From Abyssogena phaseoliformis symbiont OG214 (lineage in GTDB: Bacteria > Pseudomonadota > Gammaproteobacteria > PS1 > Pseudothioglobaceae): DNA of 64,000 nt. The notes under the pieces are model-generated. The model saw only the letters and a program-made list of their open reading frames with translations. It did not search any database and was not told the DNA's origin. Of this stretch, positions 7,405 to 62,632 are shown piece after piece. A program made the translations under genes and the position numbers. Position 1 is the first letter of the stretch. Each line of letters begins with the position of its first letter. The DNA lies in NCBI RefSeq assembly GCF_016592595.1, contig NZ_AP012977.1, positions 496,001 through 560,000 on the forward strand, in the 5' to 3' direction.

Positions 7405-7433
7405 ACTCGATCCCCTTCTTGGTTATAAAATTG

Positions 7434-7934: not shown

Positions 7935-7935
7935 A

Positions 7936-17077: not shown

Positions 17078-18250
17078 ATGAATCCGAAAATATATTAAGT
17101 TTTTATTAACAATACCAATATTGGGCTGATTGAGTTTAAAGAAGTTCGCGCCAAAGAAATAGTATCTTTTTCTTTTTCTTATTCAAAATCTTTCTTGGAG
17201 TTTGTTGATTTTTTTAATATAGACCCTAACCTCTCCAAAACAAGTGATAGGCAGTACTCCTTGAATCGCGCGCTCTTTGGGTTTTTAGAGGACTGCTCTC
17301 CAGACAGATGGGGTAAAGAGGGTGTTAAAACACAACCTTAAAAGAGTGCCAACAGTGTCTGAGTCAATATTTCTTATTGCAGACGATGGGGCTGTTCGTT
17401 TTTTTGACGAACAAACCTATGAATTTGTTGCTAAAAATAGTGAAATCCCCCTATTTGTTCATATAAGTGAGTTACTAGAGGATGCCCACTTGGTAAGTAA
17501 CAATATTATCAGTCAGGTTTTGCATGGCAAACTTGAAGGTTCTTTAGGCGGTGTAAGGCTAAAAGCTATATTAATGAATAACAATCAACTAAAAATAGCA
17601 AAATTCCCTAGTGAAAATGATGTTGAGGCTTGGGTGGAGGCTACACTTTTAAATCTTTCTAAGTTAGTAAACATAAAAACACCCAAAGCAAAACTATTAA
17701 AAGTAGAAAACGTTAAGCATAGTATTTTATCGATCGATCGTTTTGATAGGATTAATAATGAAAGAGTTTATTATCTATCTGCCATGAGTGCATTAAATTA
17801 TTGTGATGGTAATACTGAGGGTTCATCTTATATGGAAATAGCAGATTTTATTGCCACCGAAGGAGAAATAGAGGATGCCCAGGAGTTGTGGAAAAGAATG
17901 GTCTTTAATGTCATTATTCATAATAAAGACGATTACTTACGTAATCACGGCTTTTAAGAATTAAAAACAAATGGAGATTATCTCCGATTTTTGACTTAAA
18001 CCCAAATACAAACAAAGTAGAGCACGAGTTGAGCATTGATGGTAATCAAAGTCCTGACTTAGATTTGGCTGTTGGATTGTCTGAGTTTTTTTATGTCGAC
18101 AAAGTTCAAGCTAAAGCTGATGTCAATGAAATACAACAAATCATTAATAAAAATTGTGGAAAAATAGCTTTACAAAATAAAATATCGCAAAAAGAAATTA
18201 ACGTAGCGCTTGAAAGCCTGGGAATTGAAAATCACAAAACTAAAAAATAA
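17078..18250 (+). pseudogene. hipA: HipA-family Ser/Thr kinase toxin, copy 1, broken
   Basis: ATG at 17078 gives MNPKIY, TAA, then VFINNTNIGLIEFKEVRA in the same frame. CSPDRWGK is a HipA N-domain signature. A frameshift near 17,315 leads to the main part (FLIADDGAVRFF, LSIDRFDRINN), and another near 17,957 to HNKDDYLRNHGF, the catalytic loop (NKDDH-type with Tyr for His), then DLNPNTNKVEHELSIDGNQSP. HipA kinases inactivate glutamyl-tRNA synthetase or similar targets. The gene precedes its antitoxin, the same order as in the second pair at 33.4 kb. It is inactive as it stands. Confidence 0.8.
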
Positions 18251-21000: not shown

Positions 21001-21182
21001 TTTTTATAAAAGCTTTTTAAGCTACTTAATTTATGTTTAAAAAAACATTAAGGATTTGATAAATAAAATGTTTAAGCGTACACTCACAACTGCTAATGCA
21101 AAATCATTAGTCGGGATTAGTATCCTGAGAATCTACTGGAGTAATAAAACGTTGATTCGAGCGTTTTTTTATACAACAGTTT

Positions 21183-21440
21183 ATGGTGGGTTGTATAGGA
21201 CAACCCTTGAGTTGGCGGTTTCCAGTAATCCGTAGTACTAATCTTGTACAGCCCGCCACCCTCTTGATTAGTACCAATGGTGACGGTTTTATAACAAAAC
21301 TGGAGGCCATTATGTCTAAAAATCAACCCAAAGCCGCAGGTGTCTCTGCGCAAGTTTACCAAAACTATCAAGCCACTTGCTACACTTTATGTGGCGCAGC
21401 AGTCACTGCCGTAGCATTATTATTAGGAGGTGTGTTGTGA
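21183..21440 (+). CDS. Ash-family-like phage leader protein
   Basis: The frame reads VGCIGQPLSWRFPVIRSTNL, then VQPATLLIS and GDGFITKLEAIMSKNQ. This matches the Ash/phage family pattern of a GQP..W....S..VQP.T...G.....EAIM run seen before antirepressor genes in P4-like phages and satellites. Upstream an overlapping frame from 21068 begins MFKRTLTTANAKSLVGISI, so the full protein may start there with a frameshift. A second start at ATG 21312, with a GGAGG site, would make a 42-residue peptide ending in a hydrophobic helix. Its stop overlaps the BRO gene start. Molecular role unknown. Confidence 0.5.
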   Translation: MVGCIGQPLSWRFPVIRSTNLVQPATLLISTNGDGFITKLEAIMSKNQPKAAGVSAQVYQNYQATCYTLCGAAVTAVALLLGGVL

Positions 21441-22478
21441 ACGACAACATTAACAATCGTAATCTATCTATCTTTAATTTTAGAGATATCAAAATCAGGG
21501 TTATTGCCGATGATCCACAACAGCCTTATTTTACGGTAAAGGATGTTTGTGAGGTTTTGGAGATTAAAGACTCAAGAACAGCGGTAAAACAAATTCAAGA
21601 GCGATTAAATGAGGCCGGCTTAGATGGCGTGGTTTCAAACCGCACCATCCTCAAAGATCGCTTGGGACGTAATCAAACACTAATAACAACCAACGAACAA
21701 GGCTTGTACGAACTTATATTTTCCTCACGCAAAAAGCAAGCTGTTAAATTCAGAGCATGGGTAACTGGGCAAGTTCTGCCTCAACTTCGTAAAACAGGTA
21801 GCTACACTTTACCTACCCCTGTTATTCGCAGGATCAATGCACAAAGCAGACCACGAGTGCGAGATTATAGTTAGAGAGAGCTGGTTAATGGCTATACTGA
21901 ACATTATTTTTCTCGCAATCCTCAAGATCAATCAGAGAGCTGCATTTATCAAATTCGTAGCGCCTATCTCCCCGCACCTATGCTTTTATTACAACTTACT
22001 TTGATTCTTTAAGGATGGTTATAAAAATCTAACTGCCGATGAACTGAACAGTCTTGAGTCTATTCTATATGACAAGTAAGATGAGTTTTTAGGAGGAGAT
22101 GTTTTTATCCTGGTTACCCAGTCCAATACTAACAATGCTGTTGTCAAACAGCAACAGATCAGTGAGCTTTAATCAAAACTTGAAGTACATAATAAAGCCA
22201 CTAGTTTTATTGATGACAGTCAAAACTTGCCAAACGTTTTAGATTTTCAACTCTACTTTCAACAAGAGAGGGCAATTAACGCATCAATCTACAGCATTCA
22301 AGCTTTACTTGACCAAAGTAAGAATATTGAACTTATTAATTATACTCAGTCAGGCTTTGAATTAAAACTTGAAACATTAGAGCGCGCCTATCAAGTTTCT
22401 AGAGTTTTGTCAAATAAAATCAGTGAAAGTCTGATCAACTTAAAAAGACGATTAAAAAAAATAACAGACGAAGAGTAG
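21437..22478 (+). pseudogene. BRO-N domain antirepressor, C-terminal half broken
   Basis: GTG at 21437 lies 7 bp after GGAGG and overlaps the previous stop. The BRO-N domain is intact: FNFRDIKIRVIADDPQQPYF, TVKDVCEVLEI, ALITTNEQGLYELIF-like and FRAWVTGQVLPQLRKTGSYT. A TAG at 21872-21874 is followed in frame by RELVNGYTEHYFSRNP. After a frameshift near 21,990 the protein continues (GYKNLTADELNSLES, TAA, EFLGG, TAA) into LDFQLYFQQERAINASI and a helical Lys-rich end at 22478. Such proteins relieve phage repressors or bind DNA. Only the N-domain can be made now. Confidence 0.65.
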
Positions 22479-26893: not shown

Positions 26894-27832
26894 TTAAAAT
26901 TTAGTTAAATTGTATGGAATACTGAGAGTGTACTTACATGCGTGTTCACTAGAACTGGAGTATTTAATACAGCCAAAAAACCATTTTTGACTGCCTCTTC
27001 TTAAAATTAAAGGATGCGGATGTTTAGAGTCGAACCTATATTCTATTTTAGAAAATATATCTTGAAAAATGTCTTGCTTACTATAAGTTCGGTCATGACT
27101 AATTGAACGAAATCTGATTAAAGGTAGTCCTATATATCTAAAACTTTTGTCTTTATGCGCATCATTTTTTCTTTGAGAGTCTGTGTTATGAGAGTTGTCG
27201 TCTAGCTCTATTGCTGTAATGTATTCGTAATTATTAGCAGCGTCGCATAGGATGTAGTCAATATGCATATTTTGTAACTTCTTTGTGTGCTTAGTTTTTA
27301 TGATATCTAACACCCTAACTTTTGTAAACACAGCAAGCTTGGTTTGGTACTTCTCATTCAAAATATCAATAACAGATTTAAGTTGTTGATAAAATCTTTG
27401 CTCATTAAGTGTAAATATACTGGTATTTTTTTTATAAGCCGCTTCTTTTTTTACTATTTCTGTTGTTATAGCACTCTTTTTTCTTTTTCTAGTTGAGATT
27501 AAAAATATAATTGTTACTGCTAGTATTATTAAAACTACAACAAGGTTAAACATGAACACCTCGTATTTTATACGGGGATGAAATTTTTCTAAGGAAAAAA
27601 TATAAATTCCAATAACACTAAAAAACACACAAGCTAATGTCTCACGAGCAATTAATTTATGCAGTATACGCAATACAACATAGGTAGAGAGCGCTAGCAA
27701 CAATATAAAAACAATAAGAATAGTGTATTTATCATCTTGCGGAATCAATGGCTGAATCATTTGAGCAGCTTTAATAACACTTTGATATATGTGTATAGCC
27801 AAATTGGCTATTATGTCGTAATATTTTTCCAT
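26894..27832 (-). CDS. DUF2726 nuclease-like membrane protein
   Basis: Intact 312 residues. Two or three N-terminal membrane helices (YTILIVFILLLALSTYVVL, LVVVLIILAVTIIFLI) are followed by a cytoplasmic DUF2726 domain: LNEQRFYQQLKSVI, VRVLDIIK, MHIDYILCDAANNYEYITAI, then ELDDNSHNTDSQRKNDAHKD and GLPLIRFRS. The core (IDYILC, AIELDD.SH, KD) resembles a PD-(D/E)XK-type fold with D, E and K positions. The C-terminal RRGSQKWFFGCIKYS...CKYT looks like half of a topoisomerase-type zinc ribbon, with only two Cys left. It lies convergent to dotA. Role unknown; DNA processing is plausible. Confidence 0.7.
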   Translation of the reverse strand: MEKYYDIIANLAIHIYQSVIKAAQMIQPLIPQDDKYTILIVFILLLALSTYVVLRILHKLIARETLACVFFSVIGIYIFSLEKFHPRIKYEVFMFNLVVVLIILAVTIIFLISTRKRKKSAITTEIVKKEAAYKKNTSIFTLNEQRFYQQLKSVIDILNEKYQTKLAVFTKVRVLDIIKTKHTKKLQNMHIDYILCDAANNYEYITAIELDDNSHNTDSQRKNDAHKDKSFRYIGLPLIRFRSISHDRTYSKQDIFQDIFSKIEYRFDSKHPHPLILRRGSQKWFFGCIKYSSSSEHACKYTLSIPYNLTKF

Positions 27833-28818: not shown

Positions 28819-29106
28819 ATGATTACCTACAGTTGGAATAAAGAAAAGAATTTACTTTTGAAAAAAACTCGAGACATTAGTTTTGAGAAAATTGTAATGC
28901 ATATTGAGAGTGGAGATTTAATTGATATTATTCAACATCTAAACGATAAGAAATATGTCAATCAAAAAATATTGATTATTGATGTAAATAATTATGTTTA
29001 TACAGTGCCGTGTGTGATCAATAATAATGAGTGGTTTTTTAAAACCATCATGCCCAATAGACAGTTTATAAAAAAATACCTTGGAGATAAAAATGAAACT
29101 AGATAA
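28819..29106 (+). CDS. BrnT-like toxin
   Basis: Intact 95 residues. The start ITYSWNKEKNLLLKKTRDIS, then FEKIVMHIESGDLIDIIQH, YVNQKILIIDVNNYVYTVP and FFKTIMPNRQFIKKYL, follows the BrnT/DUF4258-like pattern (W...KN.., R.isFe.v, .G....V.HPN..Y.nQ, tiPsRk..K.Y). BrnT proteins are small ribonuclease-fold toxins. The gene overlaps its partner by 14 bp. A promoter-like AT-rich stretch lies between 28,680 and 28,818. Both genes look functional. Confidence 0.65.
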   Translation: MITYSWNKEKNLLLKKTRDISFEKIVMHIESGDLIDIIQHLNDKKYVNQKILIIDVNNYVYTVPCVINNNEWFFKTIMPNRQFIKKYLGDKNETR

Positions 29107-29368
29107 GGAAGAGCAAGAACTGCAAAAGTCTTTAGAGTCTGGTCAATGGGAATCTGTTGATAATCTAGATAATGAGATCGCTAAACACCGTTTAATAGCA
29201 AAAAATACTTTAAAGAAAGATCAAAGAATTAACATTCGACTTTCAACTAATGATTTAGAAGCATTAAAAACTAATGCTGTTGAACTAGGCTTGCCTTATC
29301 AAACATTGGTCTCTAGTGTTTTGCATCAATATGTTTCTGGTAGATTGATGCAAAAAGATATTAGATAG
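29093..29368 (+). CDS. CopG/BrnA-like ribbon-helix-helix antitoxin
   Basis: The ATG at 29093 lies 7 bp after GGAG, so it is preferred to the TTG at 29081. The N-half is acidic (LDKEEQELQKSLESGQWESV). The C-half is a ribbon-helix-helix: DQRINIRLSTNDLEALKTN then AVELGLPYQTLVSSVLHQYV. This is the usual antitoxin layout of BrnTA-like pairs, in which the antitoxin dimer also represses the operon. Intact; it overlaps the toxin gene. Confidence 0.7.
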   Translation: MKLDKEEQELQKSLESGQWESVDNLDNEIAKHRLIAKNTLKKDQRINIRLSTNDLEALKTNAVELGLPYQTLVSSVLHQYVSGRLMQKDIR

Positions 29369-29511
29369 TGATTATATCAGCAAAGACGAACTCAAAACCT
29401 TTTATCAAATGGGCTGGTGGCAAGAGGCACTTTTGGTGCTATATTTATGATGCAGGTGCTTTTGATACTATAGGGTGTGATAAATTATCTATAGACAAGG
29501 CTTTTGGCTAA
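29368..29511 (+). pseudogene. Truncated N-terminus of a DNA adenine methylase
   Basis: GTG 29368 overlaps the antitoxin stop and gives IISAKTNSKPFIKWAGGKRH. The PF.KWAGGKR motif is the SAM-binding start of Dam/D12-class adenine methylases. After it the sequence (FWCYIYDAGAFDTIGCDK) no longer matches and stops at 29509-29511. Only the first 20 or so residues of the enzyme remain. Confidence 0.6.
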
Positions 29512-29523: not shown

Positions 29524-32312
29524 TTATAATTCATGCAAACAGTGTATTAAAAACTCTTCCAATACTTCAAAATCATTACGTAATTGTCCAACATCGACAA
29601 TGGTTCTATTGCCCGAATGCTTGATTGAGTTTCTTTTTTTGTGAATATCAGAAATTACACCTTTAATATCATTCTTTTTGCCCCTATCTTTGTAAAAACT
29701 GTTAACTTTTTTTTGCTTAAATAATTATCTAAAGCTATTCCATCGGACTTCCCCATAAGAGTGGACAGAGATTCTAAAAAAGACCATGCGCCAATATACA
29801 TTAACACAGGGTGCTTTCTTAGTGAAACTATACACAACGAGTTGTATAGTTTGAGTAATTTATCATTTTGTACCCTTCCTAGAGCTTTTGACAATTCTGT
29901 AGATTTGTCTATTTTGGAAGGTGTCTTTGCTGTTTCAGAATGAGTGTTACTATCTTTAGGAGGTTTAAAAGAGTCATCACCATTGTCAGCTTCTTTTGTT
30001 GACTCTGTTCCTACAACTTTTTCTTTGGATTTTTTAGGTCTCACTCTGTAGTCCGAAGCGATTATCTTCATCAGTTAAAATTTCTTTAATTTTGCTATAA
30101 ACACCACTTAAGTCTTCGTTGAACCTTGTCTTTTGGTAATTTACTAAAAATTGATCAAGATGAATTTCTCCATAAATTCTTTGAGCACCGTATTTATTTT
30201 TTGTGCCAGTAATACTTTTTGGTAAGTTGGGCTCTAAAGATGTTCCCTGGATAACTCTTTGATTCCTTAAAAGTCTTATGTCGGGCTGCCTATATGACCC
30301 TTTATTCATAATTCTAACAAAACCATAAACAGGTCTGTCACCAATATCAAACTCAATATTTTTTTCCCATGTGATTAGTTCAGAATCAATATCTTCAATC
30401 TCTCTAAGTTTGTTAAATTTTCTAGTATTTAAAGGAGCAGCAGGTGTAAACATATTTTTTTCATCTGCCAAAATAACAACATTATCGTGAATAATATTAA
30501 TTTTCACATCTTTAAACCTAAAGAAAGTCTCTAATAAGAAAGGCAAAACCACATCTTGATAAAATTTAGGGTCACTTTTTCTAAAATGATTTAATAAAGT
30601 AATTTTCGTGTAATGCTTAGACTTGTTTTCTTCTTGCGTGTCCACTTTGATTTCACTTGAATGGCTAGCAAGCAAATTATCTAAATCGAATACAAAAGAA
30701 AGCTTTTCATTTGAATCAATACAAGAGGTTTCCAGTTTCCATTGACTGGAAAACTATATGGCTGCAGATTTAAGCCCCATACCATAAACAGAAAGACTAT
30801 TGTTTCGATGTGGATCATTTGAACTACGGCCCATAGTAATAGCTCGCTGCAAGTTATCTCTATGAATTCCGCCAGCATTGTCTTCAATAACAATAGTTTA
30901 GTTTTTGGTATCAATCTTTATATCAATAGTAAAATTTTGATTTGGATTTTTTTCAATAATAGCATCTTTATTACCTATAAAAGATTGAATTGAGTTATCA
31001 ACAAATTCTGACATTGCAACTTCTTCGTCATACGATTGCCCTTGCAAAACTTTATAAAGCATCATTTCTGGAGCAGCATCTATTGTTAAAGGTATTTTTT
31101 CCCATTCTTTTACTTCTCTATTAAAATTGGCTTTATTCCACCTGTGGAAGTTGTTTAGCGCAATTTCTTTAACAATATGACTATTAACTGCATTGCCAAG
31201 TGCTTTAAATGCGCGTGTTGAGTTTTCAGGAAAATAATTTAAACCATTCAACCCTTGTAAGGAAGTAGCCTCTTCAATTTTTAAGTAACGTTTTTTTAGG
31301 TCCAATAATAGGGATTTGTGTAGGGGTCATTGCAATTAGAGATGGCATCTTTTTAGGCTTTATAATTCTTATTCCTGACGCTCTAAATTGAATAATATGT
31401 TGCCAAATATCAATTTTTTCAGAGTCTCTATGGTCTTGCCAATCTAACTTTTGCCAACTTTGTGGAAACGATTTAAATTGATTTTTTCTGCTATCAAAAA
31501 AATCATTGTGTTGCTGATAGAGGAGAGGTTTGCGCGTATGAAGAATAGATTTCAACAACCAATTGGATGGTTTTTTGCTGTGACGATCAATATAATGAGG
31601 CAACAAATCGAAAACTTCATTCCACGATTTACAATCGGATAGACTTTGCCCCCAAGAACCTTTATATCGCTTAACTTCTTTTAAAGTTAGTTTATGTAGA
31701 TTATTTAAAGGATAGGTAGATCCAAATTCACTAGCAACAACAGAGTGACTGCTCATATCACAAATGTAACACATCCTGTTTTTTGCTTTCTATTGTTAGG
31801 CCAATTGATTGGCTTTTGGATTGAGTTCTTTTGAGCTATAACAAACACTCTTTTTTGTTTTGGAGAATATTAAAATCAACTGGAGAATAAATTTTATGAT
31901 TCACTTCATAACCAATGTTATTGAATGAAGATTGAATATAAGACCAAAATTTGCCATTATCAATAGTGATAATATTGGGAACGTTTTCTAAAAATACGTA
32001 ATCAGGCTGATGTTTTTTAGCAATTTTAATCACATCATCGATTAATTTTACAGAAGATGGGTATTTTGCACCCTTTCTTTTTCCTGCAATAGAGAAAGGC
32101 TGACAAGGAAACCCTGCACACAATACATCATGATTAGGGATTTCATTTTCATTGATTAAACGAACATCCCCTTTTGGTTTGATTCCATGATTTTTGTAAT
32201 ATATGGATTGAAGGTTTTTGTCTATTTCTGATGCAAAAACACACTCTATGCCAATTTCTGAGAGAGCCTTATGAAAGCCTCCTAAACCTGCAAATAAATC
32301 AATAAATTTCAT
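29524..32312 (-). pseudogene. Cytosine-C5 methyltransferase fused to MORC-like GHKL ATPase, broken
   Basis: ATG 32312 follows GGAGG. The Dcm part shows motif I DLFAGLGGFHKAL, the catalytic GFPCQPFSIAGKRKGA, motif VI LENVPNI and motif VIII QNK. After frameshifts near 31,840 and 31,290 come motifs IX-X (EEATSLQGL, ALGNAVNSHIV). The same frame then runs on without a stop through FNREVKEWEKIPLTID into a GHKL ATPase: EFVDNSIQS (motif N), VIEDNAGGI after a TAA, and YGMGLKSAAI before a TAG. A helical C-terminus ends at 29524. Total about 930 codons. MORC/MutL-type ATPases occur in restriction-modification loci; a fusion to Dcm is unusual. The whole is decayed. Confidence 0.7.
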
Positions 32313-32316: not shown

Positions 32317-32690
32317 CACCTCCTGTTTGAGTAGTTTTTTTAAAAGCTGATTAATGGTATTTTTTAAGTCAGGCTGCTGTTCTATTACTATTTTTAATAG
32401 TAATGACTCAAATGATGTGCTTGCATCTATTTCCACTGAAGCATTTAAATAGTCGCATAATTCAGATACATGCTGATTAGGTAATTTGAATTGGGCTTTT
32501 CGGATTCTTTGTTGATTGGCCTTGTTTTTTTGTTATTAATTGCGTCCTTAAAGTAGTGATTAAACCCATTAGCGCAAGTTCTAACATTTACTCCATTCTG
32601 TTTTAATCTTTCATCGACTCGACTAGTAATTACTTGCTGATTATCAGCAATTAAATTCATAGAATTGTATTCTAAATTAGATACAGCCAA
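32317..32690 (-). pseudogene. Small gene upstream of the methyltransferase, frameshifted
   Basis: The first part (MAVSNLEYNSMNLIADNQQV, GVNVRTCANGFNHYFKDAIN) changes frame near 32,480 to LPNQHVSELCDYLNASVEID and LLLKIVIEQQPDLKNTINQL, ending KQEV. The stop lies just before the Shine-Dalgarno of the methyltransferase, so the two were co-transcribed. It may be an accessory or regulatory protein of the restriction-modification-like locus. No family recognised. Confidence 0.4.
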
Positions 32691-32950
32691 TAGGAAATTC
32701 TGTAAATTAATTTTTTCAGAATTTAAAAACGACTAGATCTCTATCAATAGCTGATGCGTATTGATTTGGGACGAGAGCAGCAGGAAGCGATAAATTATGA
32801 GCGATCTATAGAGAACGCACATAAAAAAGAGAGGCTATCTACCCAGCTATATTTGAATTTAAGACTGGTAAATCATATTTAGATGTTTGGTCCGCACTCA
32901 TGTTATGTAATATTATGCATATCTTAATATTTATACTTATGAGGACTCTA
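32691..32950. other. Degenerate region without an intact gene
   Basis: A short plus-strand frame from 32752 (MRIDLGREQQEAINYERSIE) ending near 32,880 looks like a fragment of a longer helical protein. The remaining sequence is AT-rich and leads to the Phd gene with GAGGA at 32941. Confidence 0.3.
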
Positions 32951-33365: not shown

Positions 33366-34682
33366 ATGAAAACTTCAATAAAAGTTAATATCTTTAATCA
33401 AACAGTTGGATATCTTTCTCAAAACGGATCTATGTTGTCTTTTGAGTATGACTCAGACTTTCTAAACAACGCTATTGAGCTATCGCCCTTTATGCTGCCG
33501 AAAACACCAGGGATACATAAATTTAATAATAGAGGTAATGACTGTTTTAATGGGCTTCCTCATTTTATATCTGATGCATTGCCTGATAAGTTTGGCAGCA
33601 CAATCATAAGTGCTTATTTTGCCAAACAAGGTAGAAGTATTGACAGTATTACAATTTTGGAAAGACTGGCTTTCCTAGGGAAAAAGTCAATTGGCGCTTT
33701 AGAATTTGAGCCGGCTTTTTCAGTATTGGATAATAGTGCTTTAGATGATATTTTGAATCTGAAGGTTTTAGTCGACGCTGTAAAAAAGAAAATACATGGG
33801 GAGCTGTCTGAAGTGGAGGATATTTTAATTGAAACATCTTCTGGTGTTGGTGGCGCTAGAGCTAAAGCATTAATTGGCTATGATAAAAAAAACAAACTGT
33901 TTAAACCTGGACAGAAAGATGTTCCAGATGGATTTGAGCATTATCTAATTAAATTTGACAGTGTTTCCGGCGATGATCCTAAGGGCTATGGAAATGTTGA
34001 ATATGCCTACTATTTAATGGCTGTAGACTCAGGGATAGAGATGACTAAATCTTTTTTACTACCAAGTGGCGATGATGAGCACTTCATGACTAAACGATTT
34101 GATAGGGTGGGTAATAAAAAAATACACACACAAACCCTGTGTAGCATTATAGGCTCAGACTTTAACCGACCTAGATCATCAAATTATGCTAGTTACTTTA
34201 ATCTAGCAAACTTTTTTAATTTAGGATACCAAGCAAAAAAAGAAATGTTTAGAAGAATGGTTTTTAATGTTGTTTTAGCTAACAGAGATGACCATACTAA
34301 GAATTTTTCCTTTTTAATTAAAGAGAGTGGGGAGTGGCTGTTAGCACCAGCGTATGACATAACACATGCTTACAATAATACCAACCCCAACGCCTGGACT
34401 AAAGAGCATAATTTGTTAATAAATAACAAAGGAACAGGTATTACGAAAGAGGATATGGTGACAGAGGGGATCGTTTTATCATTAAGAGATCAAGACATGG
34501 AAAGTATTATAAAAGACGTCCAGAATGTTGCAGATAATTTTACTTTTTATGCTGATAAGGCTGGAGTTATCGGTCCGCACAAGGATAAAATAATAAAGCA
34601 TTTGAATGAGGTTTATATTGATTCAGAGCCAGAGCCAGAGCCTCCTGAGCAGCATGGCACTAAAAAACCAACTTTCTGCTAA
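33366..34682 (+). CDS. hipA: HipA-family Ser/Thr kinase toxin, copy 2, intact
   Basis: 438 residues. The N-subdomain 1 has NQTVGYLSQNG, LPHFISDALPDKFGSTII (HipA signature) and a Gly-rich loop SSGVGGARAKALIGY. The kinase core shows HYLIKFDSV, EYAYYLMA, MTKRFDRV, the catalytic loop NRDDHTKNFSFL and the metal-binding APAYDITHAY. The tail is Glu/Pro-rich (SEPEPEPPEQ). Such kinases phosphorylate aminoacyl-tRNA synthetases or other targets and cause growth arrest. All expected catalytic residues are visible, so this copy may be active. It precedes and overlaps its antitoxin, the reverse of classical hipBA order. Confidence 0.9.
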   Translation: MKTSIKVNIFNQTVGYLSQNGSMLSFEYDSDFLNNAIELSPFMLPKTPGIHKFNNRGNDCFNGLPHFISDALPDKFGSTIISAYFAKQGRSIDSITILERLAFLGKKSIGALEFEPAFSVLDNSALDDILNLKVLVDAVKKKIHGELSEVEDILIETSSGVGGARAKALIGYDKKNKLFKPGQKDVPDGFEHYLIKFDSVSGDDPKGYGNVEYAYYLMAVDSGIEMTKSFLLPSGDDEHFMTKRFDRVGNKKIHTQTLCSIIGSDFNRPRSSNYASYFNLANFFNLGYQAKKEMFRRMVFNVVLANRDDHTKNFSFLIKESGEWLLAPAYDITHAYNNTNPNAWTKEHNLLINNKGTGITKEDMVTEGIVLSLRDQDMESIIKDVQNVADNFTFYADKAGVIGPHKDKIIKHLNEVYIDSEPEPEPPEQHGTKKPTFC

Positions 34683-34978
34683 TGAATACAACACTTATTG
34701 GTGGAAAGTTTATAGCGATTGAAGATGCGCTCAAGACTTTTGGTGAACAAATAAAATTTATTAGGAAACAACAAAAGATAATCCAAAGAAGATTGTCAGA
34801 ACATTGTAATGTTAGTTTGACTGTCATCAAAAGAGTAGAGAGTGGTAAGCCAATTTCTACAATTAATCTAATGAGAATTCTAACTTCATTAGGAAAGCTT
34901 AGCTTGTTAATCGACCTGTACAAGCAACCCGATACCTCCCCAATGGAAGTTTGGAAAGCTGAAAAATATAAATTGTAA
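34682..34978 (+). CDS. hipB: HipB-like XRE-family antitoxin, copy 2
   Basis: The ATG at 34682 shares one base with the hipA2 stop (TAATG), so translation is coupled. A helix-turn-helix is present: LKTFGEQIKFIRKQQKIIQR then RLSEHCNVSLTVIKRVESG. The remainder is short and helical. Intact, 98 residues. It probably neutralises HipA2 and represses the operon at the palindrome upstream of hipA2. Confidence 0.8.
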   Translation: MNTTLIGGKFIAIEDALKTFGEQIKFIRKQQKIIQRRLSEHCNVSLTVIKRVESGKPISTINLMRILTSLGKLSLLIDLYKQPDTSPMEVWKAEKYKL

Positions 34979-40580: not shown

Positions 40581-41427
40581 ATGAATATAATGGTTAATTC
40601 ATATTTTTCTGGCGCAGGGCTTTTTGATATTGGACTATTGGAAGGTGGGCTTCAAATTGGGAAATCATTTGAGATTGATCTAAGATGTTGTAAGGTGCAG
40701 TATCAGACTTTAGGTGATCATGTTGTTCAAGCAGATATTAGTCAAAGCTCGCACTTAACGATGAGGGTTACGATGCAATGATTTTTACTTATCCATGCAC
40801 TAAATACAGTGCAATCGCAGATATACATGGCACTCGCACTGGTGACGAACTATTTTTGCATGCGCTTAGACAGCCTGAAATGTACGTGATTGAAAATGTG
40901 CCAGGAATGAAAAAATTTAAAGTTGTTATGAAAACGATGACAAGGCTTCCAGATTATTATATCGAAGTTTTTTGTCCAGTGAATGCGAGTAATTGGCTTC
41001 CTCAAAATAGAGGCAGACTTATTGTGATAGCGTCACGAAAACAATTTAATTTTAGGCCGTCAAAAAAAGCTAAAGCAACAACTCTAAAAGAGATTCTTGA
41101 AAAGGATGCCAAAGGCAGTACATAGTTGCTTATCTGGCAAATATCGAGATAAGCCAATTATTAGCGATCCTAGTAAAGGCGGTATTGCTCCTACTTGTTT
41201 AGCACATTATGCTAGGGATAGATCTACTAGACTAGTGGTCGATAAATCTCATTCTTGTTGGTGTTAGACCTTACACAGTCAGAGAATATGCTAGATTACA
41301 AGGCGTTCCAGGTTGGTTTGAATTTAACATACCTGATACAGATGCATATCGAATGATTGGCAACGGTGTTGCTGTACCAATAGGGCGGTGGGTTGCCAGT
41401 GAGATTAAAAGGTATTTTAAAAAATAA
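40581..41427 (+). pseudogene. Phage-type cytosine-C5 methyltransferase, broken
   Basis: Motif I is NSYFSGAGLFDIGLLEGG. Motif IV is TYPCTKYS with the catalytic Cys. Motif VI is VIENVPGMKKF and motif VIII NWLPQNRGRLIVIA. The target-recognition part is short, and motifs IX-X read REYARLQGVPGWFEFN and MIGNGVAVPIGRWVA. Frameshifts near 40,775, 41,125 and 41,240 break it. GGAGTAGAAA precedes ATG. It has no restriction endonuclease beside it. Compare the different Dcm in the 32.3 kb fusion. Confidence 0.75.
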
Positions 41428-46081: not shown

Positions 46082-47929
46082 ATGCTAGGTTCAATTAGAA
46101 ACAAAACCAAGGGCTGGGTCGCTTATTTAATCGTTGGTTTGATTACCATTCCTTTTGCTTTATTCGGCATCAATGAATACTTTACTGGTGCTTCAAATAT
46201 TAAGGTTGCTTCTGTTGATGGTACTGACATCTCAAAAGCAGAATTTCTTGCAGAATTTAACCCGCAAAAAAGACGTCTGCAACAAGAACTAGACAAAAAA
46301 TACGACACAGAATTTGATGCCATGCTCAAGCAATCCATTCTTAATCAAATGATTGATAGGCGCTTACTTGAGCAATTATCCAGTGAATTGTCGTATGAAA
46401 CAACTGCCAGTGAACTTAATACTATTATTCAAGCTAATAATTTATTCAAAGAAGAAGGGCGATTTTCATTAGAAAAATATAAGCAATTATTAAGGCTAAA
46501 TGGCTATACAACAGAAAAATATGAGGCAATAAGGTTACAAGAATTAACCCAAACTCAAATCAAATACAATTTATTAGATTCTGCTTTTGTAACGCCATCA
46601 CAACTCGTAAGATTACAAAAATTGAACAATCAACAGCGACAATTTAGCTATATTACTGTTCAAGCTGATGATTATGTTAAAGAAGTTAAGGTTGACGTAC
46701 AAAGTGTCAAAGATTTTTATAATAATAAAAAGGCGTTATTTTTTGCACCAGAGCAAGTAAAAATAGAATTTGTTGAGTTGTCATTAAATGAAATTTCAAA
46801 AAATATTAAAGTAAGTGACGATGAATTATTTAATTTTTATGAAGATGAGCAAGAGCGCTTTACTACAGAAGAAGAAAGGCAAGCACAACATATTTTGCTT
46901 GAAGATGAATTAACTGCGCAAAAGGTTATTACCCTATTAAACAGTGGTAGTGATTTTGCTAAACTTGCTGGACAATACTCTCAAGATACAGGCTCTAAAT
47001 CTGACGCAGGAGATTTAGGTTTTTTTACTCGCGGTGTTATGGTGCCAGAATTTGAGAAAAAAGTATTTGCAATGAAACTTGGCGAAGTTAGCGATTTGGT
47101 TAAATCTGAGTTTGGCTATCATATTATTAAACTTAACAATATTAAAGCTAAAATACTTAAACCGTTTGATGCAGTTAAATCAGAATTGCTTGATTTATAC
47201 ACTCAAGCACAAGCACAAAAAGTGTTTTACAGTTTGACTGAACAATTGGCCAACTTGGCTTACGAGGCAAGTTTAGAGGAAATTGTTGATCAAATGGATT
47301 TAAAACTTCAGGTGAGTGATTTTTTTGACAGGGGTAGTACTCAATTAAACCAAAAAATTGTTACTACTGCATTTAGTGACGTAGTTCTTAACAAGGGTGA
47401 AAACTCAGAAATTTTAGAATTATCAAAAGATAAATTAATGGTCATTCGTGTACGAGAAAAATTAGCACAAAGACAAAAACCCTTTACTGAAGTTAAAGAT
47501 GAAATTAATGCACATTTAATGACACTGTTAGCTAAAACTTTTGTTGATAATCTTGTCAAGAATATTGTTGATTTATTGACGCACAATGATAAAGACACAC
47601 TCAAAAAACTAATGAATAAGAACAAACTTAAATGGCACCATGTTGATTGGGTGAAACGAGATTCCAACAAAGCTGAGATGGCTATTATCAACAAAGTGTT
47701 TGCATTGGCTAAGCCAACTAATGGCAATTCTAGCTATAGCGCTCAAGACTTGGATGGAAGTAATGCAGTTGTAATCAAATTATCAGGTGTTAAAACGACA
47801 GATATAAAGACGATTAATGCTACTCTTGAAAGGTCTTTATTAAGTTTTGAATCAGATGAGATATTTACAAATATCCTTGAAACGCTTAAATCTCGAGCAA
47901 AAATTAAATTTTTTAGTAGAAATTTATAA
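46082..47929 (+). CDS. ppiD: Periplasmic folding factor PpiD (SurA-like peptidyl-prolyl isomerase)
   Basis: 615 residues, intact. A short cytoplasmic tail (MLGSIRNKTKGW) and one membrane anchor (VAYLIVGLITIPFALFGINE) are followed by a SurA-like N domain (SVDGTDISKAEFLAEFN). The parvulin domain has QAQHILLEDELTAQ, SDAGDLGFFTRGVMVPEFEK and SEFGYHIIKLNN at roughly residues 265-355. Its C-terminal chaperone part is long. PpiD sits at the Sec translocon exit and helps exported proteins fold. Length matches the family. First chromosomal gene after the element. Confidence 0.9.
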   Translation: MLGSIRNKTKGWVAYLIVGLITIPFALFGINEYFTGASNIKVASVDGTDISKAEFLAEFNPQKRRLQQELDKKYDTEFDAMLKQSILNQMIDRRLLEQLSSELSYETTASELNTIIQANNLFKEEGRFSLEKYKQLLRLNGYTTEKYEAIRLQELTQTQIKYNLLDSAFVTPSQLVRLQKLNNQQRQFSYITVQADDYVKEVKVDVQSVKDFYNNKKALFFAPEQVKIEFVELSLNEISKNIKVSDDELFNFYEDEQERFTTEEERQAQHILLEDELTAQKVITLLNSGSDFAKLAGQYSQDTGSKSDAGDLGFFTRGVMVPEFEKKVFAMKLGEVSDLVKSEFGYHIIKLNNIKAKILKPFDAVKSELLDLYTQAQAQKVFYSLTEQLANLAYEASLEEIVDQMDLKLQVSDFFDRGSTQLNQKIVTTAFSDVVLNKGENSEILELSKDKLMVIRVREKLAQRQKPFTEVKDEINAHLMTLLAKTFVDNLVKNIVDLLTHNDKDTLKKLMNKNKLKWHHVDWVKRDSNKAEMAIINKVFALAKPTNGNSSYSAQDLDGSNAVVIKLSGVKTTDIKTINATLERSLLSFESDEIFTNILETLKSRAKIKFFSRNL

Positions 47930-48001
47930 GCTAGAATCGATTCTTACTTTAAATAAATTGTTTATTTTTAACTTATTTAAACATAATTTAAAGTTCAATT
48001 T

Positions 48002-49068
48002 ATGAAAATAAAATTAACGTTGATATTGATATTGATATTGATATTGATATTGATATTGATATTGATATTGATATTATTACCTGTATTAAGTTTGGCAGGG
48101 GTAAGGAGATTTATAGCGAATTTTGTGAAAATTGCTACGGTTTTTCTCGTCAAGGTTCTCTAGGCTTGCCATTATACAGCTCAACCATTGCCAATCATTC
48201 TGATAGATATTTACAACGAACCATCAAGGAGTGGTAGACCAGGTCGGATTATGCCTGTATTTAACTTATCTGATGCTCAGGTGGCTAAATTAATTAGATT
48301 TTTGCGTGCTGGAATCAAAGCACTAAAATACGACACAACACCCATTAAAGGTAATATTGAAGCTGGACAGTATACTTATGAGCAATATTGTCAAAGGTGC
48401 CATGGGGTTGATTTAAAGGGCGAACAGGGTACTGTAAATTTTTTTTTGGAAAAAGGACAGAGAAGTTTCACCACCAGCACTCGCCAATCAAGGTTTTTTA
48501 TATTCAGTAGAAGATCAAATGATTAAACATATCATTGTTAGCGGTATTAAAGATACTGAGATGATATCTTTTACTAAAGTGTTTAATTTTACTGAGCAAA
48601 CGGTAGATGATTTGGTTAGCTTTATTCGCTCTTATGAAAAGCCATTTGAGCATAAGCATACGATTAAACAAATAGATGAACCAGTGTCGTTTATTTTTAC
48701 AAGTCCATATAAATTAGAAGAAATAGTGAATAGATTGCGAGAGTCGGCCGCGGCTTATAATTTTTAGGGTTTATCCAAATAGGGCGTTACTTCAAGGTTT
48801 GGGAGAGTTTGAAATTGGCGATAAAAAGCAAGTTGTGGTTCGCTTTTGTAATTTTAGGAATATGCAAGCATTTTTGAAACTAGATCCTAGATTGGGCGTT
48901 ATGCTACCATGTAGAGCAACAGTTATAGAGGATGGGCAAGGCAAAGTAAGCGTAGTGCTTGAAAACTATAAGCACACAGTGACACGTTTTAATAATGAAC
49001 AAATGAGCCAGTCAGCTGGTGATCTAATAGAAAAAATGCAAGAAATGGTTGAGGAAGCGTTATGGTAA
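48002..49068 (+). pseudogene. Exported dihaem cytochrome c with DUF302 domain, decaying
   Basis: ATG 48002 begins MKIKLT followed by (Leu-Ile) repeats from nine TGATAT hexamers, then LLPVLSLAG. A one-base loss in the G-tract at about 48,100 shifts the frame into KEIYSEFCENCYGFSRQG, where the first haem motif reads CENCY instead of CxxCH. Further on come GRPGRIMPVFNLSDAQVAKL and an intact second haem site CQRCHG. More shifts near 48,225, 48,450 and 48,765 precede the DUF302 domain (GDKKQVVVRFCNFRNMQAFL, LGVMLPCRATVIE). The protein would have been periplasmic, linked to electron transfer. The stop overlaps the next gene. Confidence 0.75.
48021..48075 (+). repeat. Nine tandem TGATAT hexamers in signal-peptide codons
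   Basis: 48021-48074 is nine exact copies of TGATAT, encoding alternating Leu and Ile in the hydrophobic core of the cytochrome c signal peptide. Slippage by whole units keeps frame but changes signal-peptide length. Confidence 0.95.
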
Positions 49069-49519
49069 TTAGAACTTTAATATTGCACATAGTATTGTTA
49101 GCTGGCTCAGTATTTGCAGGACATGAAGAGCTTTTAATTGAGCGTGTTAATGCGAAATTTTCATATACTTGGTCAGCACTTGATAAAACCATTACAGCCT
49201 ACCATTATAAGCCAGCTTATTTGCAACGTTGTGATTTTGCGTTTAATGAGCGCCATTATAAATCCGATAAATATCGTATTTTATTTTTTGGTAAGTATGA
49301 TGAAATGAAAAAAATGAGCAAAAAATACCCTGAAATTGTGCCGTTTTTCCATTAAAAATTACAGTAATGGAAGAAGGCGCATATACTTTAATGATTGTCA
49401 TACCGCCAATTGCACTCTTGCCATTGGTTCAAACAAATGAAGAACGTATGACTATTTTTCGCTGGCAAGAAGATATAAAAAGTATCTTAAAACAAGTTAA
49501 AAGCCAGTATCAACAATAG
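49062..49519 (+). pseudogene. Exported DUF302-type protein, frameshifted
   Basis: The start at 49062 overlaps the preceding gene by 7 bp. A signal peptide (TLILHIVLLAGSVFA) is followed by HEELLIERVNAKFSYTWSAL, AYHYKPAYLQRCDFAFNERH and RILFFGKYDEMKKMSKKYPE. A one-base shift in the T-run at about 49,348 continues ITVMEEGAYTLMIVIPPIAL and ends RWQEDIKSILKQVKSQYQQ. DUF302 proteins often accompany c-type cytochromes in sulfur oxidisers. A single shift in a homopolymer broke it, so loss is recent. Confidence 0.65.
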
Positions 49520-49582
49520 AATATTTTTTTAAAAACCTCTTTGTCAGTCGCTATAGATTTTTAGAGATATTCAGCAGGCAAT

Positions 49583-49616
49583 AAAAAACCCTGCATTCTT
49601 TTTTAGAGTCAGGGCT
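49583..49616 (-). terminator. Rho-independent terminator of fabI
   Basis: On the minus strand AGCCCTG pairs with CAGGG across an 18-nt partly paired loop, followed by six T. It lies 28 bp beyond the fabI stop. Confidence 0.75.
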
Positions 49617-49643
49617 TGTTTGATTGGTAATTGCCTTTATTTA

Positions 49644-50426
49644 TTAATTTGGCCCCTTGTCATAAAAGTTATAACCAGAATCAATATAGGTTATTTCGCC
49701 AGTGATGCCTGAGGCTAAATCAGAACACAAGAATGCAGCAGCATTACCCACTTCTTCAGTGGTTATGTTGCGCTTAAGTGCAGAACTGTCTGCGGCATAA
49801 TCAAGCAGTTTGCCAAAATCTTTAATACCAGATGCTGCTAAAGTTTTAATTGGCCCTGCTGAGACTGCATTAACGCGAATACCTCTTTCAGGTCCTAAGG
49901 CTGCTGCCATATAACGAACATTAGCTTCAAGTGAGGCTTTAGCTACACCCATTATGTTGTAATTTGGAATGGCACGAATACTGCCTAAATAACTAACTGT
50001 TAATAAAGCGCCATTGTCATTAAGCATGGAATAAGCGGCTTTTGCAAGTGCAGTAAAGCTGTATGAGCTAATATCATGCGCCGTGGTAAAATTTTCACGA
50101 GTGGTTGCTTGAATATAGTTACCATCTAGTGCTTCACGTGGTGCAAAGGCAACTGAATGAACGATAATATCAAAATTATCCCAATGGTTTTTTAATTCTT
50201 TAAAGGTTTTTTCAATACCCTCATCACTAGCAACGTCACATTCAATGACAATATTTGAGTGGCAAACTACGGCGCATTTATCAACTCGTTTTTTGAGTTT
50301 TTCATTTTGGTAGGTGAGTGCAATTTCACAGCCTTGTTTGGCCATAGCCTCAGCAATTCCCCAAGCAATAGAGCGATTTGACGCCACACCAACAATGAGT
50401 GCTTTTTTTCCAGTTAAGAAGCCCAT
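49644..50426 (-). CDS. fabI: Enoyl-[acyl-carrier-protein] reductase (NADH)
   Basis: 260 residues. It reduces the trans-2 double bond in each elongation cycle of fatty-acid synthesis in the cytoplasm. The Rossmann start [20 protein letters not shown], then [16 protein letters not shown] and [20 protein letters not shown], are typical. The FabI active site reads [19 protein letters not shown], with the Tyr-(X)6-Lys arrangement. The end [20 protein letters not shown] is also conserved. GGAG lies 7 bp before ATG. Divergent from the MFS gene; own terminator. Intact and full length. Confidence 0.95.
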
Positions 50427-50517
50427 AAATCTCCAATTTTGTTATTAATAAAAAATAAATTATAACCTACACAGCACCTATAATAATTAACTGTTTCTTG
50501 CTATTATTATTTTATAG

Positions 50518-51978
50518 ATGTTAGATATTTTCTTGACCCCTATTCGATCGCTTAGAATGCGCTACATTCCCCTATTGCTGATTTATTTTTCCTATGGCAG
50601 TAGCGTTTTTACTGCCATTGCTGAGAATTTTTGGGTGAAAGAGGTGTTAGACATGTCAGCTTCTGACTTGGCCGAGCTTGCTGTATGGTTAACCGCTCCT
50701 TGGACTGTTAAGATGATTTTTGGGCAAATGGTTGATAGTATTCAAATTTTTGGCTCTAATCGAAAATCTTATGTTTATATTGGCGCTACTTTAATTACAT
50801 TAAGTTCTGTATTAATGATTGCTGTCGTTGGTGATTATGCCATTGTGCAGGATTTTTCTAAAAAGTTTATTTATATTATTGCCAGTGTCATCGCTGTGGT
50901 AGGGTTTGTGATACAAGATGTGGTTGCTGATACTATGACAACAGAGGTTGTTGATAAATCTAAAAGTAAGAATAAAATTAACCAAGAACTTGCCACCATT
51001 CAGGTTTTATCAAGACTTTCATTAGGTTTGGCTATCTTTTTAACAGGCTGGATTGGCGGTGAACTGGCTAGTGTTTTTAAAGATAATCGTGAAGCGGTGT
51101 TTATGATTGCGTTGTTTGTGCCTTTATTGTCAATCTTAGGCGTCAGTTTGGTTAAGTTAAATATAGTAGTTGTATCACCTATTAACAAGCAAATATTGTT
51201 TGGCGGTTTGACATTCGCTGTCTTTATTGTACTGATGGGATATAACGACGTGCCTTATTCACAAGAAATTGTTTTTATTGTTTCTCTTGGCGTAGTGCTG
51301 TATTTCCTTCGAGGATTAATTACTGATTTGGATGCTCGCACTATTAGGCACATTAAAATGGCAATGATTGTTATTTTTGTTTATCGAACTATGCCATCAG
51401 TGGGTGCTAGTCTTAGCTGGTGGCAAATTGATGTACTTGGTTTTGATGAGTCTTTTTTTGCCAAGTTGTCTGCTATTGGTGGTGTTATTGCGCTTGCTGG
51501 TATGTGGTTTTCTGCTAAATTTATCATTAAAAGGAGCATTGCTGAAGTATTAATCTTTTTAACCATTATAGGCACTTTGTTATCAATGCCTATTATAGCG
51601 ATGTATTACAATGTGCACATTTGGCTAGGTGTTGATGCGCGCACTGTGGCATTGGTTGACACGGCTATTTCCTCACCTTTTAATTATATCTCTCAAGTGT
51701 TAATGCTAACATTAGTGGCTATTCATGCGCCAGAAGGCAAAAAAGGCACTTGGTTTGCCTTAATGGCAAGTTTAATGAACATTGCGCTTTCTGCTGCTGG
51801 TTTACTTACTAAATATTTAAACAAAATTTTTGTTGTCAGTCGAGAGGTTATGACAGATGGTGTTGTGACTAGTGCGCAAAATTACACTGAACTTGGTAGT
51901 CTGCTTTGGATTATTATTGGTGTAGGGTTTGTGATGCCCATTACTGTTATATTAAAATTTAACCCAAATAAATCGTGA
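50518..51978 (+). CDS. Major facilitator superfamily transporter, BT1/AmpG-like
   Basis: 486 residues with about twelve hydrophobic helices, for example IPLLLIYFSYGSSVFTAIAE, ILFGGLTFAVFIVLMGYNDV and MAMIVIFVYRTMPSVGASLS. The N-terminal loop WLTAPWTVKMIFGQMVDSIQ has the MFS helix 2-3 character. The general pattern resembles folate-biopterin (BT1) and AmpG-like carriers; the substrate cannot be told. It overlaps lspA by 4 bp and heads the MFS-lspA-thiO-DUF1566-recJ cluster. In symbionts such carriers often import cofactors, but that is inference. Confidence 0.75.
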   Translation: MLDIFLTPIRSLRMRYIPLLLIYFSYGSSVFTAIAENFWVKEVLDMSASDLAELAVWLTAPWTVKMIFGQMVDSIQIFGSNRKSYVYIGATLITLSSVLMIAVVGDYAIVQDFSKKFIYIIASVIAVVGFVIQDVVADTMTTEVVDKSKSKNKINQELATIQVLSRLSLGLAIFLTGWIGGELASVFKDNREAVFMIALFVPLLSILGVSLVKLNIVVVSPINKQILFGGLTFAVFIVLMGYNDVPYSQEIVFIVSLGVVLYFLRGLITDLDARTIRHIKMAMIVIFVYRTMPSVGASLSWWQIDVLGFDESFFAKLSAIGGVIALAGMWFSAKFIIKRSIAEVLIFLTIIGTLLSMPIIAMYYNVHIWLGVDARTVALVDTAISSPFNYISQVLMLTLVAIHAPEGKKGTWFALMASLMNIALSAAGLLTKYLNKIFVVSREVMTDGVVTSAQNYTELGSLLWIIIGVGFVMPITVILKFNPNKS

Positions 51979-52433
51979 AAACAAAATATTATTTTTTATT
52001 AGTTGTGTTATTGGTTGTCCTTGACCAATTAACAAAATTGTTGGCTTATGAATATTTAGGCATTGGCGACTCAATTGCCATTAATGAATTTTTGTCGCTT
52101 ACTTTTGCTCATAACTACGGTGCGGCGTTTAGTTTTTTGGCTGATAGTGGCGGTTGGCAGCGTTATTTTTTATCAAGTGTTTCTGCTATTGCCAGTATTG
52201 TTATCAGTGTTTGGATGCTAAGAACATCCTTGAAACACAAGTTCAAGCTCATCAGTTTAGCACTTATTTTATCAGGCGCACTTGGTAATATGATTGACCG
52301 AATTGCTAACGGGTTTGTTGTTGATTTTATTGATTTTCATTACGCTGGATTTAATTATCCAATTTTTAATTTTGCTGATATTTTTATCAGTATTGGTGTG
52401 ATATTATTAATCATAGTGGATTGGAAAAAATGA
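51975..52433 (+). CDS. lspA: Lipoprotein signal peptidase II
   Basis: 152 residues. An inner-membrane aspartyl protease that removes signal peptides from prolipoproteins after lipidation. The GTG start overlaps the MFS stop (GTGA). Four membrane helices are visible. Conserved parts are VVLDQLTKLLA, FAHNYGAAFSFL, the catalytic region LGNMIDRIANGFVVDFIDFH and NFADIFISIGV, which together supply the two catalytic Asp. Length is standard. It would mature the lipoproteins seen in the window, such as the gene at 58,776. Confidence 0.95.
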   Translation: MKTKYYFLLVVLLVVLDQLTKLLAYEYLGIGDSIAINEFLSLTFAHNYGAAFSFLADSGGWQRYFLSSVSAIASIVISVWMLRTSLKHKFKLISLALILSGALGNMIDRIANGFVVDFIDFHYAGFNYPIFNFADIFISIGVILLIIVDWKK

Positions 52434-53416
52434 GTGATTGTTTGGTGATTGGTGGTGGTGTTATTGGCATGATGAGTGCGAGAATGCTAGCAATGGCAGG
52501 TGCTAGTGTTACCTTGTTAGACCAGCGTGAGTGTGGCAAAGAGTCATCTTGGGCGGGTGGTGGTATTATTAGCCCATTGTACCCTTGGCATTATGATGAT
52601 TTGACCAATGAATTAAGTTTTGCCTCACAAGCAGTTTATGCAGATTTATGTCTGCAAATTTTTGAAGATACAGGCATTGACCCGCAATATATTCAATCTG
52701 GCTTGTTAATGATGGATGAATATGACTCGTTATTAGCGATACAATGGATGGATAAATATCAGGTTAGTTATCAGCCTCATGTTAATGGCGCCTTGTTTGC
52801 CAACATTGCTCAGGTCCGCAATCCAAGATTATTACAAGCCCTGAAGGTTGATATTTTGAATAAAGGCGTGAATGTTATTGAGCATGTTCAGGCAAATGAT
52901 TTATTGATAAAAGACAACCAAGTGATTGGTGTAAAAACTAAAGATAAAGATTGTTTTGCACAAGATGTTGTTGTTTGTTCTGGCGCATGGAGTTCAAAAT
53001 GGCTAAAACTTGCTGATGATATTTTTCCAATGAAAGGTCAGATGATTGTTTTAAAATCAATCAAGGGTGTGGTAGAGAACATTGTGTTAGATCAAGGCAG
53101 GTACATTATTCCAAGGGCAGATGGGCGAATATTGGTTGGCTCTACCATGGAAAATGTTGGTTTTGATGGTCGTACTGATATTGGCGTACAAAAATCACTC
53201 CACGAATTTGCTTATCAAAGATTTCCAGTTTTACTTAATGCGACAATTGAACATCACTGGTCTGGTTTTAGACCAGCAAGCCTTTCTGGCAAAGTTATAC
53301 TGGGTAAGCATGAACAATTTGAACATTTATTAATAAATACTGGGCATTTTCGCAACGGCTTAAATATGGCGCCTGCCAGTGCAGATAAAATTAAACAACT
53401 GATTATCAATGCATAA
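52430..53416 (+). CDS. thiO: FAD-dependent glycine oxidase of thiamine synthesis
   Basis: Starts at ATG 52430, overlapping the lspA stop (ATGA); the upstream TTG gives an unlikely extra three residues. 328 residues. The Rossmann FAD site is CLVIGGGVIGMMSARMLAMA, followed by GKESSWAGGGIISPLYPWHY, typical of ThiO/DadA-like oxidases. Later come PMKGQMIVLKS, RYIIPRADGRILVGSTMENV and FRPASLSGKVILG, ending GHFRNGLNMAPASAD. ThiO oxidises glycine to the imine used in thiazole formation. No other thi gene is next to it. Confidence 0.85.
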   Translation: MSDCLVIGGGVIGMMSARMLAMAGASVTLLDQRECGKESSWAGGGIISPLYPWHYDDLTNELSFASQAVYADLCLQIFEDTGIDPQYIQSGLLMMDEYDSLLAIQWMDKYQVSYQPHVNGALFANIAQVRNPRLLQALKVDILNKGVNVIEHVQANDLLIKDNQVIGVKTKDKDCFAQDVVVCSGAWSSKWLKLADDIFPMKGQMIVLKSIKGVVENIVLDQGRYIIPRADGRILVGSTMENVGFDGRTDIGVQKSLHEFAYQRFPVLLNATIEHHWSGFRPASLSGKVILGKHEQFEHLLINTGHFRNGLNMAPASADKIKQLIINA

Positions 53417-53960
53417 AATAATCGTTTTCTTATCATTCTTTGCTTGTGCTTTAATTGCCAATGCACAATTAATTAAAGTTTCGGCACAAGGAAATATCCT
53501 TGAAAGCGAGGTTAAAAATCATCGGTGTATGCTTGATCAGCAATCTAAGTTAGTATGGGAAGTTAAATTAAGCGATAAGGGATTGCAAGATACGAACAAC
53601 ACCTATACTTGGTTTAACGGTAAATCAGGGGTTGATAATGGCGACTATAGCCATCATTGCCATTGGGGTAAAAACTGCAATACTCAAGCGTTTATTAATG
53701 CGTTAAATACAGCTAAGTTATGCAAGCAAAGCACTTGGCGCTTACCCAGCGAGTCAGAACTCAGAACTTTATTGATTTATGGCGATAATGACTTGCTCAT
53801 CAACCCAAACTTTTTTCCAAACACTAGACGCAAATCTTATTGGAGTGCAGATGAGCAAGATATTGATATTGCAATCGATGTGCCATTTTTCTATGGTGGT
53901 AGCAAAAGTTCTGACAAGTCCTTTTGTGCCCATATTCGAGCAGTGAGTGATGCTTACTAG
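53409..53960 (+). CDS. Exported DUF1566 domain protein
   Basis: 183 residues. A signal peptide (IIVFLSFFACALIANAQ) is followed by the DUF1566 body: CMLDQQSKLVWEVKLSDKGL, NTYTWFN, CNTQAFINALNTAKLCKQS, TWRLPSESELRTLLIYGDN and NPNFFPNTRRKSYWSADEQD. WRLP and the final YWSA are hallmark motifs. Several Cys suggest disulfides in the periplasm. It overlaps thiO by 8 bp and recJ by 11 bp. Biological role unknown. Confidence 0.75.
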   Translation: MHKIIVFLSFFACALIANAQLIKVSAQGNILESEVKNHRCMLDQQSKLVWEVKLSDKGLQDTNNTYTWFNGKSGVDNGDYSHHCHWGKNCNTQAFINALNTAKLCKQSTWRLPSESELRTLLIYGDNDLLINPNFFPNTRRKSYWSADEQDIDIAIDVPFFYGGSKSSDKSFCAHIRAVSDAY

Positions 53961-55641: not shown

Positions 55642-55695
55642 AAATAAGCGTATTATCAAGGTAAAATATGGCCTTTTTATTTTTAAATTCTTGTA

Positions 55696-58121: not shown

Positions 58122-58178
58122 GACTTAAAAGTCTGAAAATATAAAAAAAGCCTGATAGGGCAATAAAAGGAGTAAATG

Positions 58179-58376: not shown

Positions 58377-58393
58377 TTTAGGAGTATAAGAAA

Positions 58394-58775: not shown

Positions 58776-62632
<3,857 letters not shown>

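Follow-up and report, generated by a model that had tools for sequence, protein, structure and literature searches.

The cytosine methyltransferase (Dcm) and MORC-type ATPase that run together in one reading frame in Abyssogena phaseoliformis symbiont OG214 are probably the remains of a pseudogenised defence cassette. The cassette would have held, in that order, a small gene, Dcm and a MORC ATPase ending in a HEPN-like domain of the PD-Lambda-5_A type, and the apparent fusion would have arisen only as it decayed. The locus lies in a window, that is, the whole stretch of 64,000 nucleotides analysed (contig NZ_AP012977.1, positions 496,001 to 560,000), and the source genome is one contig of 1.54 Mb. 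The idea of a one-protein methylase–ATPase design falls away. The locus points to a small Dcm–MORC clade without helicase or restriction-type nuclease, in which the effector domain is common to a tested phage-defence system.

Organisation and decay of the locus

The first-pass annotation had placed a cytosine methyltransferase and a GHKL ATPase between a start at 32312 and a stop at 29524. These edges are correct for the pseudogene, and the naming of the parts was borne out as a C5-cytosine methyltransferase and a MORC-type GHKL ATPase, both decayed. All parts are on the minus strand. The N-terminal part of Dcm (31836..32312, frame -3) contains catalytic motifs, among them the PCQP loop and ENV, matches PF00145 (E 6.5e-53) and is 59–62% identical to the Dcm of L025 and L029 (L numbers denote the loci fetched for comparison). 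The target-recognition part (31274..31834, frame -1) was located by tblastn with 44–47% identity to residues 191–370 of intact Dcm, and stops and a deletion mark its 5' edge. The C-terminal part with the motif GNAVN (31153..31308, frame -2) was also located by tblastn, with 44–54% identity to residues 360–413 of intact Dcm, and by itself gave a weak Pfam match (E 0.025). Dcm is split over frames -3, -1 and -2, its target-recognition region is partly gone and stops occur within the damaged stretch; intact Dcm relatives match PF00145 across the whole profile (E 6.6e-63 for the L018 Dcm), whereas the window copy matches it in pieces.

A linker of 23 open codons (31084..31152), bridging the two reading frames in the window copy only, leads into the MORC-type GHKL and S5 ATPase (30061..31083, frame -2). 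This part is 48% identical to L029, and the window pieces below 31320 match HATPase_c_3 (PF13589, E 6e-16). It is broken by two nonsense codons, TAA at 30898–30900 and TAG at 30754–30756, and two further frame changes (-2 to -3 to -2) precede the stop at 29524. A second linker and the first part of the C-terminal domain (29655..30071, frame -3) are 36% identical to L029 and match the PD-Lambda-5_A profile; the end of the domain (29524..29721, frame -2), with the motif RNSIKH and the stop at 29524–29526, is 52% identical to L029 487–551. The damage is greater than the frameshifts in A-runs and two nonsense codons described beforehand, since Dcm occupies three frames and has lost a piece, in addition to the two nonsense codons of the ATPase. 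The window copy is a pseudogene and is itself unable to work.

Upstream of Dcm, the remains of a small gene that is a possible regulator (~130 aa in relatives) are spread over two frames (32317..32732). When a profile built from the counterparts of this gene in L024, L026 and L029 was run against 1723 window segments, the two collinear pieces at 32732–32317 ranked at the top, with E values of 5e-5 and 6e-5 at profile positions 13–55 and 53–121.

The GHKL motifs of the window ATPase read EFVDN, DNAGG and YGMGLKS, and the E, D, N, DNAxG and GxGxK columns are invariant. The MORC-specific S5-domain motif is GhXhhpXXRhl (PMC2292703); intact relatives read GLRLLRNNRVI or GIRLLRNNRVI at this place, and the window reads DIRLLRNQRVI, with the first Gly changed. 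The full-length structure model was weak (pLDDT 67, few sequences), and its ATPase half matched the Hsp90, TRAP1 and SMCHD1 folds.

Several other features were observed in the window. Just past the 3' end of the ATPase lies a probable BrnT/BrnA-type toxin–antitoxin pair, apparently intact, with a weak DUF4258 match and a CopG-antitoxin-like gene (28819–29368, plus strand), followed by a short remnant that resembles the beginning of a D12 adenine methyltransferase (29370–29450, plus strand) and reads NPFIKWAGGKRHF. An intact gene on the minus strand near the locus (26894–27832) combines a predicted hydrophobic N-terminus with DUF2726, which has weak similarity to an REase family. An intact HipA-like gene and then an HTH-like ORF occupy 33366–34978 on the plus strand, and a second, truncated HipA_C gene is present at 17322–17957. 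A Bro-N antirepressor-like gene is immediately preceded by sequences that match isrK and C4 antisense RNA in Rfam (21092–21263 and 21377–21874, plus strand), and this region looks like a prophage immunity region.

Junction between the methyltransferase and the ATPase

A minus-strand ORF from 31305 to 30898 spans both ALGNAVNSHIV and EFVDNSIQS without a stop, as the first-pass annotation had noted; the distance of about 70 residues that it gave between these motifs is 54 when counted from the translation. The non-homologous linker between Dcm and the ATPase measures 69 nt (23 codons), and a stretch of this length is stop-free by chance in 11% (shuffled sequence) to 14% (random sequence of local composition) of cases, which makes the open frame only slightly surprising. 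The distance from GNAVN to PEM is 111 nt in the window and 106–221 nt in relatives, in which a stop and a start lie between.

The closest homologues among 84,980 species genomes were L022–L029 (41–50% identity). In all eight, Dcm and the ATPase are encoded by two ORFs, and the gaps between these measure -4, -11, 38, 41, 38, 104, 51 and 36 nt; the Dcm ORF of L023 starts at the contig edge, and its Dcm/ATPase junction is complete. Two ORFs were likewise found in L124, which came from a later search. L018 is the same locus as L025 and was excluded from the counts, and L122 is the same locus as L029. Among all fetched loci, none of 91 related MORC ORFs was fused to Dcm, and a separate Dcm ORF was directly upstream in 76, overlapping in 53 of these. 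No natural Dcm–GHKL fusion was found in the collections searched, and none of the further genomes examined from the symbiont's genus or family contained a homologue of the window copy. The same class also includes Endozoicomonas sp. G2_1 (G174), which shares its contig with L025. In L028 and L029, the Dcm and ATPase ORFs are in the same frame, their spacing being a multiple of three, and they are parted by no more than a stop and a short spacer, so that one lost stop is enough for an apparent fusion in a pseudogene.

One candidate, L079 (Corallococcus, 5876–8518), was rejected as a Dcm–MORC fusion because its N-terminal half is MTaX1 (methylase-associated X1) and not Dcm. It joins MTaX1 and a MORC ATPase in one ORF and is a possible fusion of another kind.

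Clade and gene neighbourhood of the intact relatives

In a tree of 92 ATPases, the window ATPase groups with L022–L029 in a starred clade (100/99). Most other loci have genes for a Z1 helicase and a PD-(D/E)XK nuclease downstream; no member of this clade has either. No Z1 helicase gene was found within ~6 kb downstream in L022 and L024–L029 or on the short L023 contig, and no long ORF adjoins the ATPase gene in the window. A gene of ~130 aa precedes Dcm in L024, L025, L026, L029 and L124; of these, L024 is from Pseudoalteromonas byunsanensis and L029 from Kangiella, and both carry all three genes intact.

The surroundings of the intact pairs vary. The pairs in L027 (317–5529) and L018 (10910–13983) adjoin Tn7-type transposition genes, with TniQ confirmed by Pfam for L018, and are therefore probably transposon cargo. 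SprT-like ORFs were read by eye upstream of Dcm in L027 and L028; as read from translations, L022 and L023 adjoin apparent type I R-M genes and the L029 pair sits between housekeeping genes. No homologue was found in phage records, and plasmids yielded only two loci, both Z1-type.

The C-terminal domain

All members of the L022–L029 clade end in a domain of ~135 aa, to which neither Pfam (E up to 10) nor a PDB sequence search assigned a family. PADLOC identified it as the C-terminal domain of PD-Lambda-5_A, with E 2.9e-37 for intact L029 and E 1.5e-25 for the window fragment. The profile matches of L029 and L024 are limited to the C-terminal part of the models, and the N-terminal half of these proteins is the MORC ATPase. 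The first-pass annotation had raised a C-terminal nuclease as a point to check; the intact homologues bear no recognisable restriction-type nuclease, and what they do bear is the HEPN-like domain shared with PD-Lambda-5_A.

The same domain ends proteins of 444–460 aa that adjoin a D12-like adenine methyltransferase gene in L116 (5056–6417), L117 (2341–3678), L118 (5080–6414) and L123 (5789–7171), three of which are on viral contigs. The D12 methyltransferase was confirmed by Pfam in L116, L117 and L123, and PADLOC names the L117 and L123 pairs PD-Lambda-5_A and PD-Lambda-5_B.

The AlphaFold2 model of the C-terminal domain is helical (pLDDT 88.7). In a second comparison with PDB, its top 20 matches were HEPN or HEPN-like, at Z scores of 5.6–8.4, on a scale where helical bundles can reach 13 by chance; 7ae6_A, for example, gave Z 8.0 (rmsd 3.6, 117 aligned), and vinculin was lower (Z 5.3). 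The best Foldseek E value was 0.24, for which reason the structure matches are no more than suggestive of a HEPN-like fold. A search of a viral structure library gave no useful match.

GNxxKH is invariant in all 14 intact rows read, which represent 13 distinct loci and two unrelated architectures. The HEPN catalytic motif R-x4-6-H is absent from the same 14 rows, where Gly takes the position of the Arg, so that RNase activity is doubtful. Only the window copy, which is decayed, has an Arg at this position (RNSIKH), and from it a canonical HEPN motif was first read; that reading was dropped, as the intact copies have GNxxKH.

Discussion

The claim of a single chain combining methylase and ATPase was not upheld, since none of the 91 MORC ORFs is fused and 76 have a separate adjacent Dcm upstream. 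The close homologues (L022–L029 and L124) are all two genes, the outcome that the first-pass annotation had said would mean a fusion arising here by loss of a stop codon; the nearest relatives are only ~48–52% identical, and a fusion may on that account have existed shortly before decay. That a true Dcm–MORC fusion protein was once made in the window lineage and decayed afterwards is nonetheless unlikely: the linker is in frame and free of stops, and the spacing in L028 and L029 is such that the loss of a single stop would join the two genes, but a linker of this length is open by chance in 11–14% of cases, none of the 91 related loci is fused and several other disabling changes lie within the same gene. 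The absence of fusions together with the chance expectation for the linker makes fusion by decay the plain reading. We give hardly any credence to sequencing or assembly error in intact genes. A-runs coincide in part with the frame changes, but the two nonsense codons argue against homopolymer error alone and a stretch of Dcm is missing. The neighbouring small gene is also decayed, as is a second cytosine methyltransferase at 40581–41125 on the plus strand (PF00145 E 1.9e-6 on 40778–41125, with a motif-like start at 40581–40781), and long housekeeping-type ORFs outside the island (46082–62633) are intact, so that the decay of the methylase/ATPase region is local. More broken DNA_methylase pieces were observed elsewhere in the source genome.

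The locus might also be the remnant of a Dcm–MORC–Z1–PD-(D/E)XK operon (Iyer type 3) that had lost its helicase and nuclease, as this type is common to most related loci and Z1 is present in 66 of the 76 with an adjacent Dcm. This is very improbable, because the window ATPase bears the PD-Lambda-5_A-type domain and groups in a clade without Z1 throughout, and because the window retains, in decayed form, the small upstream gene characteristic of that clade. A more serious alternative keeps the same cassette and takes the C-terminal domain as a dimerisation or ligand-binding module rather than a nuclease, with defence exerted by clamping or blocking foreign DNA. The replacement of the HEPN Arg by Gly in all intact copies read speaks for it, as does C. 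elegans MORC-1, by which DNA is topologically entrapped and compacted (PMC8277788). The invariance of GN-x-x-KH in 14 intact copies of two unrelated architectures, as expected of a functional site, and the abortive-infection arm proposed for PD-lambda-5 stand against it, and we hold this alternative to be possible, though less likely than not.

In the preferred reading of a pseudogenised cassette, the Dcm stop would have been lost, or frames shifted, once selection had gone. The intact cassette is most likely a methylation-marked, MORC-sensed abortive-infection system in which restriction and Abi are coupled as proposed for PD-lambda-5. Dcm would methylate host sites, and the MORC protein would act as an ATP-dependent dimeric clamp that engages DNA which is unmethylated or in some other way foreign, or stays locked on it. 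The engaged clamp might then activate the C-terminal HEPN-like effector, thereby halting the infected cell. We see about an even chance that Dcm–MORC–CTD is an undescribed helicase-free phage defence that has no restriction-type nuclease, with a MORC clamp as sensor and a PD-lambda-5-type HEPN-like domain as effector, methylase and sensor having been swapped around a shared effector (the PD-lambda-5 N-terminal half with a D12 methylase versus MORC with Dcm). The locus thus offers a testable guess for a minimal bacterial MORC role, the coupling of a loss of self-methylation to a killing domain, and is relevant to how the MORCs of eukaryotes, proteins that act on methylated chromatin, originated.

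Comparison with known systems

No link between the Dcm–MORC clade and the PD-lambda-5 effector domain was found in a limited literature search. MORC–methylase neighbourhoods without a helicase were already noted in 2008, as a minority with methylase or nuclease (Iyer, Abhiman and Aravind, PMC2292703). The prokaryotic MORC R-M operons of that study are alike in that a MORC GHKL and S5 ATPase adjoins a cytosine methyltransferase; the window clade differs in adding the PD-Lambda-5_A-type C-terminal domain and the small upstream gene, and in being without Z1 and the PD-(D/E)XK gene. As to MZA, the ATPase domain matches MzaB weakly (E 1e-7, 31 bits), far under the family cut-off of 850, and the window clade is without a Z1 (MzaC-like) gene.

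ParaMORCs that are encoded near R-M genes and end in a HEPN domain were described in 2013 (Anantharaman et al., PMC3710099). The HEPN (Ymh)–paraMORC proteins share with the window clade a GHKL ATPase and an R-M neighbourhood, and their C-terminal HEPN domain has its counterpart in the predicted HEPN-like domain of the clade; a PrrC/RloC-like action was proposed for them. They differ from the clade in that Pfam gave no PF09509 (Ymh) match for the window-clade domain, and the HEPN Arg is absent from the intact copies.

The effector end is common to PD-lambda-5, a system recovered by experimental selection in E. coli. It gave protection from nearly all of the phages tested, and has been called a compacted RM+Abi system (Vassallo et al. 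2022, PMC9519451). In both systems a DNA methyltransferase gene is paired with one whose protein has this HEPN-like domain at its C-terminus. The N-terminal half of PD-Lambda-5_A is different, the window clade having a MORC ATPase there, and PD-Lambda-5_A is paired with a D12 adenine methyltransferase (PD-Lambda-5_B), whereas the MORC protein is paired with Dcm.
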